Assembly (NCBI GenBank): GCA_010015805.1 | Contig: ML978142.1 | Coordinates: forward strand, 62,001 to 126,000 | Direction of reading: 5' to 3' | Origin: Rhizodiscina lignyota | Taxonomy: Eukaryota > Ascomycota > Dothideomycetes > Aulographales > Rhizodiscinaceae | Length of the DNA: 64,000 nucleotides | In this document: positions 30,403 to 53,467 of the stretch, piece by piece | Layout of the letters: each line of letters starts with the position of its first letter | Position numbering within the stretch: position 1 is the first letter of the stretch | The notes under the pieces: model-generated | What the model was told of the DNA's origin: nothing | Database searches by the model: none | The model's input: the letters and a program-made list of their open reading frames with translations, nothing else | Made by a program: the position numbers and the translations under genes

Positions 30403-33400
30403 ATGTATTCTCAGTCGCAGGCCTTCTTAGGCGGCGGTAATAGCGCTCGTCCTGGCCAACCTCCGTATGGGCAGCAGCAGTCTTTCCAGCAACAGCAGCC
30501 TAATGGCTTTGGACCACAGCCAACTGGCTATGGCCAGCAGCCTTTACAGTCTCAGTATACAGGCTTCCCAGGGCAGCAAGGCTTTCCTCAACAACAGACA
30601 GGCTTGCAACCCCAATTCACGGGATTTCCGGGGCAGAGCCAGCCTCAGTTTCAGCAACCGCAACAGCAGCCTCCTCAGCAGCAACCTCCGATGCCAACAG
30701 GCCAGCAAAGCGCGCCTCCAGCGCAGCCGCAACGGCCACAAGCTACCGGCCTAACCTCCTCGCAGATTGCAGATTCGTTCCGCTCGACGCCGGCGGCGCA
30801 ACCGCCTCCCCCTTCGAGCAGCGCTCCCACGGGCTCAAAGATTCCTAACATTCGACTGTCCTTCATCACCGCGACAGACCAGGCAAAGTTTGAGCAGTTG
30901 TTCAAATCTGCTGTTGGGAGCAATGGGGCATTGTCCGGAGATCAGGCCAGGGAGCTGCTGCTGCGCTCGAAGCTTCCGGGTGATGCGCTATCTCAAATTT
31001 GGTAAGGTGGTCGTGTGCACATGTCGAGTATAATTCTGACCGTATCAGGACATTGTCAGATACTACAAAGTCTGGACAGCTCCTTTTCCCCGAGTTCGCG
31101 CTTGCCATGTACCTCTGCAATCTCAAGATCGTCGGCAAAGACCTCCCTGCGAGCCTCCCGGAGCGCGTACAGAATGAGGTGTCAAGTATGGTGGATATAA
31201 TATCGTTTGGTGTGCCAGATGACAAGCCAGCGGCTGCTCCACGGACCAATGCGCCAAACTTCAGCGAATCCTCACGAAACGTAGCAAGTCCGCCTGCGGT
31301 GCAACAACCACAAGCGCAGCAGCCGAACAACGCGCAACTCCTCGCTCAATTAACAAGCCAACCGACTGGTCTCATGCCTCAAATCACTGGTTTCCCAGGA
31401 CCAGGAGGAGCGCAAGGGTTTCAGCAGCAGCAACAGGGATTGCAGCCTCAGGTTACGGGATTCTTGGGTCCGCAAGGAGGAGGATACACGGGGCCACGTC
31501 CGCCTATGCCTCCCATGCCGACCGGATTCGGTGGCCAGCCAGGAATCTCGCCTCAACAGACGGGTATGCCAATCGCGCCGTTAAATGCTCAGCCGACTGG
31601 TATACCTGGTCAATGGGGTTTGGTGAATACACCAGCTTCTGGGTTGCCCAATATTGAAGCGTTAAAGCAACAATTGCTTCCTCAACCTGGCCGAGAAGGT
31701 GGATTCTCTACTGTTGGGCTTAGTGGTAGCGCACAGGTGCCCTGGGCAGTAACGAAGGATGAGAAGAAGATCTATGACGATTTGTTCAAGGCTTGGGATG
31801 GCTTTAACAGAGGGTACATTGGCGGCGACCAGGCCATTGAGATTTTGGGCCAAAGTGGTCTGGACAAGACCGATCTTGAGCGAATCTGGACACTCTCTGA
31901 CCCGAACAACCGAGGCAGGCTCAATCTCGATGAGTTTGCTGTGGCCATGCATTTAATTTATCGCAAGCTAAATGGCTACCCCGTGCCAAACAGACTCCCA
32001 CCAGAACTGGTTCCGCCGTCTACTCGCAATTTCAACGACTCGATTGGCGCGGTCAAATCGTCTTTATCGCGAGATGCCGAGGAGCGCAAGTCCACCGGTG
32101 CTTTCCTGCAGCCGCAGAAGACGGGCGTGTCATATTTGAAAACTCACTCTTTCCGGTCCGGAAGTCCTCTTAGTAGCGCTGCACGCAAGGACGCAACTGT
32201 CTTCCGCAACAATGACGATGACGTCGGTTATAAATCCAGCGCACGGCATCGCGTCGGCGCGGGCGGTCGCACGCCCAGCCCGCAGCAGCCGTCGAGCCCT
32301 GCCAATGATGAGCTCAGTCTTGACCAGATAAGGAAAAAGATCCGGGAAAAGCAGATTCTACTCGATGCCATGGACTTCCAGGACGAGAAGGACATGGACG
32401 AGGACGAGGCACTGGATCGCAAGGACAGACGTGAAGCAGAGGACCTTTACAGGCGCATTCGTCGCATACAGGAAGATATTGACGGCCACCCCGACGCGAT
32501 TTACAAGTCCAGCGATAGCGACGCAGAGCGCCGCACGCTGAAGCGCCAGTTGCAGGGTCTGACAGATAAGCTGCCCGAGCTGGCGAGCAATGTGCGGAGG
32601 ACCGAGCGCGCTATTGCAGACGCGCAGATGGAGCTTTTCCGCTTGAAAGATGCGAAGGAGCATCCGGGCTCTGCGGCTACTATCGTTGGCACCGGACCAG
32701 GTGGTGCGGTTACGGAATCTGATCGCCTAAAGGCGCGCGCGAAGGCTATGATGCAGCAGCGCTCGGCTGCTTTGACTGGCAGACCGGCCCCTGCAGGAGG
32801 AGACGACCCTGGGGCTGCGGCGAAGAGGCTGGAAGAGGAGAGCTCGCGCGTGATAACGGAGCGGGAGAATCACGAGAGGATGGTGAGAGATGTTGAAGAG
32901 AGTGTGACGGAGTACAGCAAGTCTCTGGAGCTCAACCTCAAGGAAGGTGGTGAGAGCGCGGATAATGAGCATGAGAGGCGTAGGTGGGAGGATGCTTTGG
33001 GTGTTGAGGATGAGGTCCGGGACTTCATTTTTGACTTGCAACGAGAGAGCCGGGCGTCGAGAGTCAGGCGCGAAGACAACGTTCGAGGCTCGAACAGAGA
33101 TGGCTATTCCTCCAGAGCTGCTGAAGAGCCGAAGCCTAGCGCCCGCGTTGAGGAACCGGCTCGTAACGAATCCCCTGTGCAGAGATCCGCCAATGCAACG
33201 CCAACTGGTGGAGCATCTTACTCGTCTTTCAAGTCGGGCGAGGACCGTGCCACGTTCATCAAACAGCAGGCTGAGCAGCGCATGGCAGAACGTCTGGCGG
33301 CTCTGGGCCTCCGCGCTCCTGTTTCTAAACAAACCGGCGAGACAGCACAGCAGCGGATGGAGCGTGAGAAGAAGGAGCGCGAAGAGAAACTCCGCCAGGC

Positions 33401-34873
33401 CGAAGAGGAAGATAGACGTCGGGATGAGGAGAGACAGAAGAGGCTTATTGATGAAGGTCTCGCTCCCCCTGTGACGGGCAAGGCTCCAAGTGGAGGAAAG
33501 AAGCCACCGCCAGCTCCTCCAAGCAGAAAGAAGGCCGAAAGTGTTGGACAACATGAAGCTGCGCAAGCAGAGGCGGAGAAGAAGAGGGTTGAGCATGAGA
33601 TGGCAGAACGAGCTCTAAAGGAGCAACAGGAGGTCCAGCAAAGGGAGCGGAAGTCTATGGAGTAAGTTTATTTCTTTAGATTTATTATCATCGTAGGTAC
33701 TGACATGCTCGAAGGGATGAGGCGAGACGTGCCGAGGACGACCTCGTAAAGGAACAGGAAGAGGCACAGGCCCGCCTTCGTGCTCTGGAAGAGCAAGTCA
33801 AGCAGGGCAAGATGAAGAAACAAGAAGAGAAGCGTGCTAGACAAGCTGCTCAACGTGAAGCGAAAGACAAGGAAGAGCGCGTTGCTGCTCAGAGGAGGGA
33901 GTTGGAAGCGGCCAGGGAACGAGAACGTCAGCTGCAAATGCAACTCGAGAGTCTGGAAGATGAGGATTCCAGCGACGACGAAGGTCCGCAGGAGATCACT
34001 CCGCAAGAGACTACTCCAACGGCTAGCCAGGAGCTTCCTGCTCAACCTCCCTCGGCGCCACCGGTGCCTCAACCAGCCCATGAGCCGACTCCACCATCGT
34101 CAATCGCGACTCCTAGCACCAGCACCATAGCTAGCCCAGCAGCCCCGCCAACTGTCGATGCTGAGAACAAGAACCCCTTCCTGAAGAAGATGGCCGCAGC
34201 AACTGCAAGCGCCAACGCAACCGCAGATACCACCCCACCTCCCGCCCCGCCACCAGCGCCGCCAGCAGCTGAGTCCACCAACCCCTTCCACCGCCTCACT
34301 CAAAACGACACCGCCTCTGTACCCACCGCCCGCTCGCGTGCGCGCAACGCAGACGAGGACGACTGGTCTGTCGTTGACGACGACGCAAACTCCTCGTCCG
34401 ACGACGAGCCCGGCCCCACTGGCGGCTCCGCCAAACAGCTCGCCAGCATCCTTTTCGGCACCATGGGCCCGCCGCGCCCGCTCTCCGCCATGGATGAGAA
34501 GAAGAGCCCGACCGGCCGCGACAGCCCCTCCGTCGCTATCACGCCCGCCTCGCCTACAGCAAGTTCGGGCCCACCTCCTGCGACTGCGAGCCCATCGAAT
34601 GCGCCTCCTCCGCCGCCGTTGCCGAGTGGAAGTCCTTCAGCCCCGCCGCCGCCTCCCCCTTTGCCCGGTGCGGGCGCGCCTGGAGGCCCACCTCCACCAC
34701 CACCATTGCCCGGTGCAGGGGCTCCGCCTGCTCCGCCAATGCCGAATTTGCCGGGTGGGGGTACGGAGAAAAGAGGTGCGCTGCTGGGGCAGATTCGTTC
34801 GGGGACGGGGCTGAGGAAGGTGGAGACGAAGGATAGGAGTCAGAGCTCCGTCGCGGGGAAGGTGTTGGATTGA
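30403..34873 (+). CDS. PAN1: Actin cytoskeleton-regulatory protein PAN1
   Basis: Endocytic scaffold that with End3 and Sla1 activates Arp2/3 at cortical actin patches. Exons 30403-31001, 31049-33661 and 33715-34873 encode 1456 aa. The N-terminus has glutamine-rich repeats with [13 protein letters not shown] motifs. The first EH domain (about 150-260) spans the first intron, which restores [20 protein letters not shown]. More PQxTGF repeats follow. The second EH domain (about 460-560) contains [20 protein letters not shown] and [19 protein letters not shown], with an EF-hand-like loop. A long charged coiled coil follows (about 630-1160). The C-terminus is acidic and proline-rich ([19 protein letters not shown], then polyproline runs) and ends with a WH2-like actin-binding motif, [19 protein letters not shown]. 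Domain order and length match fungal Pan1. Confidence 0.97.
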
Positions 34874-44665: not shown

Positions 44666-44673
44666 AAAAAAAA
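44666..44673 (-). terminator. RNA polymerase III terminator (T8)
   Basis: Eight consecutive T residues on the minus strand, starting eight nucleotides after the tRNA 3' end. This is a strong Pol III termination signal and argues that the tRNA gene is functional. Confidence 0.9.
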
Positions 44674-44706
44674 GGAAGGTGAGGTCCTGCCCGGATTCGA
44701 ACCGGG

Positions 44707-44759
44707 CTGATGTATATGTTAGCGCATGTAATATAATTTTTAGGGTTGGCATGGCTTAC
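44707..44759 (-). other. Spliceosomal-type intron inside the tRNA variable loop
   Basis: 53 nt inserted exactly between the 4-nt variable loop (CAAC) and the T stem (CCCGG). On the minus strand it begins GTAAGCC, contains GCTAAC 11 nt before the end and ends ACATCAG, which is the donor, branch site and acceptor consensus of the protein-gene introns in this window, at the same typical length. Removing precisely GT...AG restores a normal tRNA. No bulge-helix-bulge was identified, but I could not fold the RNA. Confidence 0.75.
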
Positions 44760-44769
44760 GTTGCCGGAA

Positions 44770-44787
44770 GATCCCAACTCGCATGAA
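44770..44787 (-). other. Canonical tRNA intron next to the anticodon
   Basis: 18 nt inserted between anticodon-loop positions 37 and 38, the standard site for tRNA-splicing endonuclease. The ends are uncertain by about one base because flanking T residues are shared. Confidence 0.85.
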
Positions 44788-44824
44788 TCAGAATCCGGAG
44801 TGATGACCGCTACACTACAGAACC

Positions 44825-45672
44825 AAAAACGTTGATTTCAAAAACGGATTAATAATATATAGTTTGATTGCATACCTCGCCGAAACGCTTTCCGTCCCAT
44901 CTCACCGCCCCAGCACCTCTACACCTTTCAGATCCACAGCACATATGAACAACTCCGAATGAACTCTCCAGAGCCTAACTGCCATCACAACAGCATCATT
45001 GCCGCTTTAATCGTTCTAGAATTGAGTTGCCAGGTGTCGTCTAGCTGCTTTTCCCTCCAGTTCGAGCCTAGGCCCAGGGTAAGACCTAAAGTTTTACCCA
45101 GTTTTGGACCATACATCTCAATTCTCATGTCGCATAATCGGGCAAGCAAACTATGATTCGGGACCCTTTTTGGTGAAACCACATGTCTTTCCAGGTAGCA
45201 CTAGTTAAATCTTGCCGCTCGTAACGAGCTCTCTACAACACCTACTTGAACGGAGTTGGAATTCGGAAGAGACCGAAACGAACAGTGTTCAGTATCTGTG
45301 AGAATGTCTTTGACTATCTTGATTATTTTACATTATGTGTTTTTGGGTATTCGTAATATAGGAAAAAGAGGAATGAAATGAGTTCTGCTGGGTTTTATTT
45401 CTAATTTATCACATTGTTTTCTTTTTATAAGTTTCGGCGCGGTGCTCAGAGTATATCGTCGAGAATGCAAACCCTCTTCCTTCCAATCCGCCGACCAACT
45501 TTCCATCTGTTACCGATATCACCGTACCACTGAGGACCGGCCATTGAGCTTCGCGGCCTCTTCATGACGAAGGCGGTACCTATCCAGGTGCATGAATTCC
45601 CGCGATGCGTATGCCGGAGAGCCACTTGTGAGATGGAAGGTGGCTTGAGTGGACCTAGAACCCGACCCTTCT
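44825..45672. other. Intergenic region upstream of the tRNA gene
   Basis: About 850 bp. The stretch adjoining the tRNA 5' end is AT-rich (TAATAATATATAG near 44850), suitable as a Pol III upstream element. The remainder has no supported gene. Confidence 0.45.
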
Positions 45673-50311: not shown

Positions 50312-53300
50312 TCAATAAGCACCCGCCCTTGGGCTCCATCGCGGTTGCGGTGACAGTGCGGGCTTGCGGTATCCACTCAATACAGGCATCTGTGGCTCCA
50401 AACCCAAGCTCCCCAGTCTTGCTCCCTCTTTATTCAATGCCCACAATGTTAGTGCGACGGTATTCATGCCGTCGTAGTTCAGAATACCCTCCGGCACCGG
50501 ATACGTTGTTTGTGGTCCCAGATTCGATACTGTCAATGCCTGTCAGCAATTCTCAATCTCGGAGAGGTTGTCCTGCGGTGATCCGTACCGTATTTGCCAA
50601 ACTGGTACCCATTTACGTAGAACTGGACTCTGTACACTCCCGAACCAGTTGCATTCACGTCTGGCTCCGGGAATATGAAGCTCATTGGCACATCATATCC
50701 ACGTGGGACATGCAGCTCAAAGCTCGTAGTATAGAAACCCACGCCTGCTTTGCCAATTCCGGCTTTCATCGGGCTTGCGCTCTTCCATTTTCCACTTGGA
50801 GGACTGGGCTGATGGTATCCTTGCCGCTCCGCATACATCGCGCCCTCGTTGCGTGGCCCTCGTACCAAGTCATGATATTGCTCGCCGCCGAGATTGCCTG
50901 TCATTTTCCACGTCACGCCGTTCTGCTCGTGGCCGGACAGCTGGTAGTTCAGAAGTCCGCGAGGTGCTTTGATTGCGTCCGTGCCGGGAGCTTCTTCGTC
51001 CTGTCCAGTGTGGTCGATCAGCACAGTTACAATATGCTTCTTTCCCTTTTGTAGCTTTGAAGGGAAATCGAAAGTCTGGTTCCAGGTCGAATTGGCGCCG
51101 CTGCCGATCCAAGACCCGAGGAATGTGCTGTCGAGCCATGCAGAGTGTGCAAAGCCAACGCCACCGGAAACGTTGAGGTAAAGATTGGATTCCGCTCCAT
51201 TGGCAGTGAAGTGACCGCGGTAGATAAGGGAGCCTGTGTGGTATCCGTAGTCACTTGCGTAAAGGGACGTAGGGGTCAATAGCGGAAGAATTGGATTTGT
51301 CGTTGTCTTGTGATTGCAAACAGTCCACTTCGAATCATCGTAATTGGGCTGAACCTCGGGTAGTGAGTCTAGATACTTCCACGACAATTTGGACAGGTCT
51401 GGAACAGACACTGATGGATGCTTGAACTGAATGGAACCGGTTAACCGGCCAGACTTTGCCTCACAATCAACGTCTTCTCCGTTGAACGAGAGGGACTGGA
51501 CGGCACCAGTCGGTTCGTAAACAAGTTCAAAATTCGTAGTTGTGTTCAGATCGCCCGTCACCCTGAGTTCTTGGCCACTAAGAGCTGCTGTACGTAACAG
51601 ATATCCTCCCTTGATGATTACAGATGACTTTGACGGTGACGAATAGTTGCCAATCGGCGCCTCGGCAGGAAGCTCCATTATCCAGTGATTGTAAGCATCG
51701 TTCCGCCAAAGCAGATGGACCTCCAAACTGTTGCCGAAGTCGACAACTTTACGATTCGGAGTCACCCTCCATTGAACCGTCCAGCCGGAAGACGTTTGTC
51801 GCAGCTTCACGCCAGAGCCCTCTGAGACCTTTGGCTTTCCAGCCTTGCTCTCGAATGCAAACTCATGAAGCTCGCCGGCGCCTCCGTACAACAAGAGAAT
51901 GCGCTTGCCGGAGTTCCACTTCTGCCAGGAATAGATTTCTCCAGTTGAATAGACCAGGTTGAGCCCGCCGACATCGTAGTCCGTGACATGAATTTTCGAG
52001 TCCCGGCCGAGCAACGTCAAGTCGCCGCCCAGCTGTGGTATCGCAACCTTGCCTCTGCTTGTCTTGACGATCAGCTTGTAATTCGTGTTGTTCAAGGAAG
52101 TGAAGTCGGCATGGCGAATAACATAAAAGTTGGTCTTGTAATTTGTTCCCCACAACGGAGTTGTCGCTATGGCACTTGTCGACACATACGATCCGTTCGA
52201 CACGTTTCCAGGGTTCGTCGTGAAATAAGCCGGAGAGACTTTAAAGAACTCTGCTTCCAACTTCTCTTCACTATACTTCTCTCGCCAGACATGACGATCC
52301 TCTGTAATCGCCGCTCCGTAATCGTATGAGGAGTCCCCTCCTTGATATCCCAGGTTTCCCCAATTGGTGCCTCCGAACGTCATGTAGATATTCAACAGTT
52401 TGACGCCGAAGCTATAGTTATTTTTGTACATGACGCGCACTGCTTCCATGTTGACGAGAGCGTTACACATGTCTTGGTCGACGCCTCCCCACCCAGTGCC
52501 AGTGCCCCCTTGAAACTCTGGAATCGCGAACGGCGTTGAAGGACTCTGTTCTTCGTGCAAAGTCTGCCAGCCAACAGGGAATCGAATCGTTGGCCAAACT
52601 TCCGGATGTGCGCAGTCGTATCGTAATGGATAGGCATCGATGCCATACAAGTCGACCGATCCAAGGCCCGTGCCGGGCGCAAAGCTCCCTTGAACGAGGT
52701 TGTCGTTGTCAATGAATGGCACAATGATTCCGGCATCTCGATATAGCTGCTCCACAACAGCCATATACTCTTTCTGAGGCTGCTCAGGAAAGTCGGTCTG
52801 GTTCACGCTTGGCCAATCGGCATACTCGTTCTCGGGCTGCAGCATCACGACCGGCCCTCCATTGGTGATCTGTGCTTTCGCGATAATCTTGCTGATAGTG
52901 GAGACGTACTTCCTGGTTGCGTCGATGAAGCCCGGAGCATCCGATCTAAGTGTGCTGTTGATTCTCAATGTCCAACCCGGAAATCCGCCGGCCGCAGTCT
53001 CCGCGTTGATGTAGGGCCCTGGGCGTGCGATCAAATAGATACCAGCTTCCGAGGCAGCCGCGAAGAAAGGTTCATAGTCCCAGATTCCATCGGTGACCAC
53101 ATGTCCCCGGTTTCCCTCGATAAGACCCCAATAGACGTAGAATGACACGCCATTGAAGCCCATAGCCTTGATTTTCTGGAAAACATCAAGCCACAGGCCA
53201 GGAACCGGGATTCTCCATGGGTGAAATTCGCCGGAATAGAAGAAGACACGTTCACCGCGGACGAACAGAGAATGTTCATCCCAAGTTACCTGCTCAAGTT

Positions 53301-53467
53301 AGCTGCACGATCCCGCCATGATGAGCTGTGCCTCTTACCAGGTCTTGTAACGGTTCTCGCTTCTGGGCTGTTTTTGTGAGCACAACATCGCGCCCATGTA
53401 CAGCAGCATCAACGAATATCTGGGATGCAAAGAGAGTTGCCAAAAGGCAAAGGACTGAAACGCGCAT
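50312..53467 (-). CDS. lacA: Secreted GH35 beta-galactosidase (LacA type)
   Basis: Extracellular beta-galactosidase acting on lactose and on galactose side chains of plant polysaccharides. Three exons (53467-53339, 53289-50589, 50529-50312; introns of 49 and 59 nt) encode 1015 aa, the usual size of fungal LacA. A signal peptide opens the protein ([20 protein letters not shown]), followed by a Kex2-like QKREPL. The first junction restores [20 protein letters not shown]. The catalytic (beta/alpha)8 domain holds [18 protein letters not shown], the acid/base glutamate in [13 protein letters not shown] (about residue 200) and the nucleophile glutamate in [17 protein letters not shown] (about residue 300). 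The C-terminal beta-domains include [18 protein letters not shown] and the jelly-roll end [20 protein letters not shown]. Many N-glycosylation sites (NST, NYS, NGS) are present. Sits back-to-back with a P450 gene. Confidence 0.97.

Follow-up and report, generated by a model that had tools for sequence, protein, structure and literature searches.

A tRNA-Gln(CUG) gene of Rhizodiscina lignyota with a canonical and a predicted spliceosomal-type intron, and similar predicted introns in other tRNA genes

Introduction

Eukaryotic tRNA introns lie at position 37/38 and are cut by a protein endonuclease, and the spliceosome is held to serve RNA polymerase II (Pol II) transcripts, with U6, U3 and rRNA as the exceptions. 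According to a 2017 paper, U3 and U6 are the sole small structured RNAs in which introns are known to be frequent (PMC5832005). Two reviews on tRNA introns put those of eukaryotes for the most part at 37/38 and do not contain the word stem "spliceosom". No earlier report of spliceosomal introns in tRNA genes was found among the titles, abstracts and passages covered by a search of the CC-licensed literature of PMC.

The tRNA-Gln(CUG) gene described here carries one intron of the canonical 37/38 kind, 18 nt in length. Its other intron, of 53 nt, differs from that kind in sitting at 48/49 and in having GT-AG borders and a branch site, with no bulge-helix-bulge seen in a rough test.

Materials and Methods

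The window is the whole stretch of DNA analysed, 64,000 nt in length, and the genome searched, that of Rhizodiscina lignyota (Dothideomycetes, Aulographales), comprised 33.4 Mb in 29 contigs. Three proteins of the window match R. lignyota proteins, two at 100% identity over 98% of the query and one at 96% over 59%. Candidate tRNA genes came from scans for a B box followed by a T run, the places used being those of the first scans and 19 chosen from later lists. For each T arm in the retrieved sequence, tRNA scores were obtained without excision and after one or two GT..AG excisions, and the branch motif played no part in this scoring. Intron positions within the tRNAs were numbered by hand. 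The excision boundaries (up to the ambiguities given below), the motifs, the copy number within the searches made and the terminators can all be read directly from the letters.

Results

Layout of the Gln(CUG) gene

The gene lies on the minus strand at 44824-44682 (Rfam RF00005: 35 bits against a gathering score of 29, E 0.0013), which agrees with the coordinates given in an initial annotation of the window that had left the strand unnamed. The RF00005 alignment places an insert in the variable region, and the parts of the gene, with the basis for each, are as follows.

44788..44824, minus strand: exon 1, 37 nt; acceptor 5' strand, D arm, anticodon stem 5' strand and anticodon loop to A37 (RF00005 and letter-by-letter reading)
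44770..44787, minus strand: canonical 37/38 intron, 18 nt (RF00005, excision scoring and letter-by-letter reading)
44760..44769, minus strand: exon 2, 10 nt; position 38, anticodon stem 3' strand and variable loop CAAC (letter-by-letter reading; TAAC at the equivalent place in Gln(UUG), L021)
44707..44759, minus strand: predicted spliceosomal-type intron at 48/49, 53 nt; GTAAGC donor, GCTAAC branch and CAG acceptor (excision scoring and letter-by-letter reading)
44718..44723, minus strand: branch-site motif GCTAAC, its end 11 nt before the intron end (letter-by-letter reading)
44682..44706, minus strand: exon 3, 25 nt; T arm, acceptor 3' strand and discriminator (RF00005 and letter-by-letter reading)
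44807..44817, minus strand: A box TAGTGTAGCGG (letter-by-letter reading)
44693..44703, minus strand: B box GGTTCGAATCC (letter-by-letter reading)
44856..44861, minus strand: upstream TATATA, first T 37 nt before position 1 (letter-by-letter reading)
44666..44673, minus strand: T8 Pol III terminator (letter-by-letter reading)

The two segments removed in the initial annotation, 18 nt at 37/38 and, after CAAC, 53 nt of the form GTAAGC..GCTAAC..CAG, were confirmed letter by letter, the latter sitting between C48 and the T stem CCCGG, and the A box, B box and T8 that it had called intact are all present. With any boundaries allowed, 7,791 excisions were scored, and the 11 co-optimal ones are all slides of one 52/53-nt solution, a single one of them being GT..AG. 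Lowering the score to 21.3 lets 169 other excisions through, 44 of which are shifted by no more than 6 nt at either end, and the score threshold alone is therefore weak for this gene. The earlier statement that a tRNA forms only after two removals is confirmed as more than chance, with the caveat that the minimum-free-energy fold of the joined 72-mer is not the cloverleaf and pairs CCGGAUUC with GAAUCCGG. The predicted cloverleaf rests on homology and pair scoring; by pair scoring it is present after excision, together with both boxes and the terminator. With bacterial settings ARAGORN reported no tRNA in the window, and its long-intron setting gave a false Asn call at this gene.

No other Gln(CUG) gene was found, and the other Gln gene found is a UUG paralogue, which ARAGORN mislabels as Ser. 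Its 4-nt variable loop TAAC is followed directly by the T stem with no insert, which supports a length of exactly 53 nt for the insert in Gln(CUG). A Gln-type D arm (18 nt, up to 2 mismatches) occurs at two places in the genome, these two genes, and a search with the mature Gln(CUG) sequence matched this locus only. The T-arm pattern with 2 mismatches gave five further places, in whose 3-kb surroundings ARAGORN sees no tRNA. Listing the tRNA-Gln(CUG) genes of the genome, as the initial annotation had proposed, therefore yields one gene, and its suggestion that the insertion is tolerated thanks to other copies is not supported, as T-arm, D-arm and mature-sequence searches revealed no such copy. 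The gene is very probably a functional, single-copy nuclear gene with two introns of different kinds, as predicted from its sequence.

Comparison with mRNA introns of the window

Matching annotated R. lignyota proteins to the window gave four mRNA introns in two genes.

53290..53338, minus strand: beta-galactosidase gene mRNA intron, 49 nt, GTAAGA..CTAAC..CAG (exact match to P0001)
50530..50588, minus strand: second mRNA intron of the beta-galactosidase gene, 59 nt, GTACGG..CTGAC..CAG (protein match)
31002..31048, plus strand: PAN1-like gene mRNA intron, 47 nt, GTAAGG..CTGAC..CAG (match to P0121)
33662..33714, plus strand: second mRNA intron of the PAN1-like gene, 53 nt, GTAAGT..CTGAC..AAG (match to P0121)

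The match of the PAN1-like gene covers P0121 up to residue 1217 of 1445, and a third window protein, P0241, showed no intron on matching. The initial annotation had likened the Gln(CUG) insert to neighbouring mRNA introns, and this set, albeit small, bears the likeness out: the four introns are 47-59 nt in length, with similar motifs and the branch A 9-13 nt from the end. The 53-nt intron has GT/AG borders, a CTNAY motif at the corresponding spacing, and a size and motifs like those of the four mRNA introns. Other intron classes were set aside for it, as a canonical endonuclease intron would sit at 37/38 rather than 48/49 (a place that the 18-nt intron does fit), whilst for a group I or II intron 53 nt is too short and the only Rfam match in the window at the gathering score is the tRNA.

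Interrupted tRNA genes across the genome

The Gln(CUG) gene is not alone, as 13 of the 39 tRNA genes seen need GT..AG excisions outside 37/38, 14 in total, to fold. The first companion was an Rfam match with a broken acceptor stem (C3:2428387, 32.6 bits), which a 50-nt GTGAGC..CTAAT..CAG excision turns into Ile(UAU). Of the 42 candidates with a T arm, 24 give a tRNA without any excision and 12 after one or two, whilst six stay at or below 14.4; these six (the second L031 site, L085, L087, L127, L145 and L146) were left out of the gene count. The 39 include L018 and the first member of the L019 pair, both detected by ARAGORN. The interrupted genes and their GT-AG introns are listed below.

Gln(CUG): intron at 48/49, 53 nt
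Arg(CCU) (L027): intron at 5/6, 51 nt
Trp(CCA): intron at 2/3, 51 nt
Ala(UGC): intron at 3/4, 51 nt
Ile(UAU): intron at 6/7, 50 nt
Thr(CGU): intron at 13/14, 51 nt
Asp(GUC): intron at 13/14, 53 nt
Gly(GCC) (L100, G000:C5:80300-80900, minus strand): introns at 9/10 and 19/20, 56 and 52 nt
Arg(ACG): intron at 14/15, 55 nt
Ser(GCU): intron in the D loop, 52 nt
Gly(CCC): intron at 29/30, in the anticodon stem, 48 nt
Glu(UUC): intron at 32/33, 53 nt
Arg(UCU) (L149, G000:C1:3379230-3379520, minus strand): intron at 54/55, in the T loop, 55 nt

These introns fall in the acceptor stem, D arm, anticodon arm, variable loop and T loop, at 13 different positions, and are of the same length, donor, branch and acceptor type. 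Canonical 37/38 introns occur in 28 of the 36 scored genes of the genome, and 11 of the 13 interrupted genes (10 of the 12 scanned, and Arg(UCU)) have one as well. In Gly(GCC) a 9-nt exon separates the two GT-AG introns and a 6-nt 37/38 intron follows, in Glu(UUC) the GT-AG and 37/38 introns are 5 nt apart, and Arg(UCU) has a 7-nt 37/38 intron. After excision, the stems of the scanned interrupted genes are intact and their terminators are in place. No other gene for Asp, Trp, Glu(UUC), Arg(ACG), Ser(GCU) or Gly(GCC) is among the 39.

The Arg(UCU) gene was reached independently, through a weak Rfam match on C1 (17.8 bits, E 8.7) that was picked neither by its T arm nor by GT-AG. Just one of 7,788 excisions in it scores above 15, a 55-nt GTAAGT..CTGAC..CAG; the unspliced sequence gives no tRNA, and ARAGORN agrees on Arg(UCU) only once the intron is excised. 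Genes of this type, with the B box split, are invisible to a gene finder based on the T arm.

The Rfam tRNA search recovers five of the 13 interrupted genes at E <=0.001 and three more at E 0.7-8.7, the matches added at E <=10 being Asp, Thr and Arg(UCU). This search scores only the best candidates and also missed at least four ordinary genes (L069, L120, L124 and L129), so part of the loss is due to the tool. The gene list is incomplete, Rfam having scored the best 63 of 934 candidates, and may conceal further copies; isotypes absent from it include His, nuclear Pro, several Leu, Ala(AGC) and Glu(CUC).

Three of the 39 genes look organelle-like, namely a tandem Met(CAU)/Ile(GAU) pair (L019, G000:C12:600025-600173) and Pro(UGG) (L029, G000:C7:652300-652370), all in large, presumably nuclear contigs. 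The Ile anticodon GAU is not usual in nuclear genomes, and both loci are possibly organelle DNA in the nucleus. At L020 (G000:C12:831000-831350, minus strand), which ARAGORN calls Ser(CGA), excision scoring gives a 31-nt intron and the anticodon CAU, in a tRNA body that we take to resemble fungal Val(CAC). Two T-arm families were set aside as repeats, one of about ten copies (GGTTCGANTCCCGCGGGGAT...; L040, L043, L051 and L114 were read) and one of four (GGTTCAAACCCGGTAATGGACAAACAC; L062, L112 and L115 were read). The larger is a dispersed element with a TATA, an A-box-like sequence, a B box and a T run, and both families are probably tRNA-derived SINE-like elements.

Tests of the excisions

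With excision, the scores of 12 genes rise from between -99 and 19.4 to 21.9-24.4. In a boundary control over 19 targets (13 introns and the six T arms left out of the gene count), GT..AG rescues all 13 introns and none of the six, whilst the other 255 dinucleotide pairs rescue a mean of 1.38 and at most seven of the same targets. At the same score 503 other excisions pass, of which 302 are slides within 6 nt at both ends and 201 are not, 125 of the latter being in Gln(CUG).

GT..AG is exactly co-optimal for seven of the 13 introns and within one point of the best for 11. The two that exceed one point are Arg(CCU), where another excision scores 25.8 against 24.2, and Ala(UGC), with 24.4 against 22.4. 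For Ala(UGC) the GT-AG boundary is settled by a paralogue, since the gene without its GT-AG intron is identical at 71 of 72 positions to Ala(CGC), which is uninterrupted at that place. Arg(CCU) is the weaker case, having three G-U pairs in its acceptor stem after GT-AG excision as well as the higher-scoring alternative. For Arg(ACG), Glu, Asp and Ser, some excision other than GT-AG scores 0.4-1.0 higher, and Arg(ACG) has two equal-scoring donors. The gain for Trp is small, at 3 points (19.4 to 22.4), and the donor adopted there is GTGAGT (21.95) and not the best-scoring GT-AG donor GTTTCT (22.45). In folding energy, the joined Asp tRNA has no advantage over shuffled sequences (z -0.74).

All 12 spliced sequences receive a tRNA call from ARAGORN, eight of them with the expected anticodon, as do seven of the 12 unspliced ones, three with the expected anticodon. 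Since 199 of 600 sequences also receive a call when stretches of equal length are removed at random, ARAGORN adds little.

The sequence CTNAY, with its A 10-13 nt from the intron end, is present in all 14 GT-AG introns of tRNA genes (13 of 13 scanned, and Arg(UCU) at 13 nt), against 86 of 1,959 further GT..AG stretches (38-90 nt) taken from the same 42 regions. When intron interiors were shuffled, with a 9-14 nt window, the mean was 1.28 of 13 and the maximum seven in 5,000 trials. The lengths, at 48-56 nt, are comparable with the 47-59 nt of the four window mRNA introns, and the tRNA introns look like the same kind as these.

The initial annotation had proposed that a bulge-helix-bulge at the insert borders would point to the endonuclease, and no such sign was seen in a rough pairing count, which separates canonical introns from random but not the GT-AG ones. 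The count is 7.61 for 18 canonical 37/38 introns against 6.20 for random (sd 1.09), and 6.38 against 6.25 (sd 1.04) for the 13 GT-AG introns of the 12 scanned genes; the Gln(CUG) intron scores 7, with two of four central pairs.

A comparison with introner-like elements, likewise proposed, revealed no abundant family, as the tRNA introns share almost no sequence and only one pair among 13 exceeds the shuffle limit. This pair, Gly(GCC) intron 1 and the Arg(CCU) intron, scores 10.0 (95th percentile of the best pair in shuffles, 7.5) and has in common the motif AATTAATAAAT..GCTAAC, which has no exact match elsewhere in the genome. The shared motif hints at one copying event between unrelated tRNA genes and not at an abundant introner. 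One U6 gene (G000:C6:1760056-1760155) was found among the best 47 of 2,072 candidates scored, and it has no intron.

Transcription signals

A TATA element lies upstream of 26 of the 37 tRNA genes tested. It is within 80 nt in 16 of 24 ordinary genes, 13 of these having it 35-42 nt before position 1, and in nine of the 12 scanned interrupted genes, seven of these having it 33-40 nt before the first exon. The distance is greater in Trp (51) and Asp (67) and is 39 in Arg(UCU), whilst Arg(CCU), Ala(UGC) and Ile(UAU) have no TATA of the searched pattern within 80 nt upstream. Eight of the 13 interrupted genes thus have a TATA 33-41 nt before the first exon and five do not, which suggests that most transcripts start before exon 1. 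The A box is split by D-loop introns in several genes, and the B box is split in Arg(UCU) and intact in the other 12, so that binding of TFIIIC should suffer where a box is split. In some plants and fungi a TATA box upstream is of importance for the transcription of tRNA genes (PMC3978253), and such a box may permit transcription here despite a split A or B box.

Discussion

The 53-nt intron of Gln(CUG) is in all likelihood a U2-type spliceosomal intron, and one of at least 14 predicted in at least 13 functional nuclear tRNA genes. The suggestion of the initial annotation that the precursor needs both the endonuclease and the spliceosome gains support from this, and more than a single locus could give, 13 genes having the same type of insert at 13 different positions. 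We infer the use of the spliceosome, the order of the steps and the function of the mature tRNAs from the gene sequences. Transcription by Pol III would be directed by the upstream TATA and the internal boxes and would end at the T run. Whilst the transcript is still in the nucleus, the spliceosome would excise the GT-AG intron as a lariat and so restore the body of the tRNA. The folded pre-tRNA would next be processed by RNase P, tRNase Z and the endonuclease, the 18-nt intron at 37/38 being handled by the tRNA-splicing endonuclease and ligase. The spliceosome should act first because the endonuclease requires a folded tRNA body and RNase P requires the acceptor stem. Six interrupted genes (Asp, Trp, Glu(UUC), Arg(ACG), Ser(GCU) and Gln(CUG)) are the sole ones found for their tRNAs. 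A large part of the nuclear tRNA set could thus probably be made only through the spliceosome acting, as the first step, on Pol III precursors, and translation would depend on the spliceosome.

The chance that suitable excisions can always be found, GT..AG pairs being common, deserves weighing because the first pass itself used GT-AG, six of the 13 introns are not exactly the best-scoring excision (two by more than one point), and 201 of the 503 other rescuing excisions are not slides, 125 of these in the Gln gene. The control over all 256 boundary pairs, the branch-site test, the Ala paralogue and the single solution in Arg(UCU) argue against such over-fitting, which we hold to be extremely improbable. 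It is very unlikely that the interrupted genes are pseudogenes or tolerated insertions, with other intact genes supplying the tRNAs. Unusual insertions in the tRNA genes of eukaryotes, as noted in PMC4090602, for the most part affect a single gene out of many synonymous ones and are taken to mark pseudogenes, and the incomplete gene list could hide copies, but no second Gln(CUG) was found, the 39 genes hold no other Asp, Trp, Glu(UUC), Arg(ACG), Ser(GCU) or Gly(GCC), and after excision the stems are intact and the terminators in place.

Two further explanations concern the machinery. The tRNA-splicing endonuclease might cut out the extra inserts by acting away from 37/38, as it does in Cyanidioschyzon merolae, in nucleomorphs and in many archaea; introns at similar positions are described for other lineages (PMC4090602), and with 37/38 introns in 28 of 36 genes the enzyme should be active. 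Yet the bulge-helix-bulge count is random-like at the 13 GT-AG introns and above random at the 18 canonical ones, the endonuclease gives no reason for the uniform 48-56 nt, GT..AG and CTNAY spacing, and the yeast enzyme is said, in a portion of PMC4033280, to cut only at 37/38, all of which renders cutting by the endonuclease highly improbable. Spliceosomes normally act on capped Pol II transcripts, and the introns, of the very kind proposed here, might be spliced from such transcripts and not from Pol III precursors. This appears very unlikely given the B boxes (intact in 12 of 13), the T runs of Pol III type and a TATA at a distance from the first exon similar to that of ordinary tRNA genes; in addition, the fission yeast U6 gene has an intron, going by a reference title in PMC5832005.

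Splicing of Pol III precursors by the spliceosome, the reading preferred here, makes three questions accessible to testing. One concerns the way in which Pol III transcripts, uncapped and very short, are recognised by the spliceosome. Another is how transcription is initiated when the A or B box is split, for which a TATA box may be enough, and the third is the route by which introns of the mRNA type come to lie in genes for structured RNAs. Standard annotation is likely to call tRNA genes of the GT-AG-interrupted kind missing.

Amongst described systems, the inserts of nucleomorphs, C. merolae and archaea resemble those reported here in occupying ectopic tRNA positions, sometimes several per gene (PMC4090602 and PMC3978253, each in part). 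They are, however, read as endonuclease substrates or, in one nucleomorph, as unexplained inserts of 3-24 nt, whereas the introns of R. lignyota are 48-56 nt in length and have splice-site and branch motifs. Finding so many short spliceosomal introns within a single gene class would be consistent with a burst of gain such as that of introners, but the tRNA introns here share almost no sequence. The spliceosomal introns of fungal nuclear rDNA, named for one fungus in PMC11782384, are likewise mRNA-type introns in an RNA gene outside Pol II, there in Pol I rRNA and here in Pol III tRNA. The introns of fungal U6 snRNA and U3 snoRNA are also mRNA-type introns in genes for small structured RNAs. 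Compared with these, the hosts here are tRNAs, many genes and positions are involved, the endonuclease would also be needed in 11 of the 13 genes, and the U6 gene found has no intron. The type of intron is already known, whilst its presence in tRNA genes, on such a scale, appears to be new.
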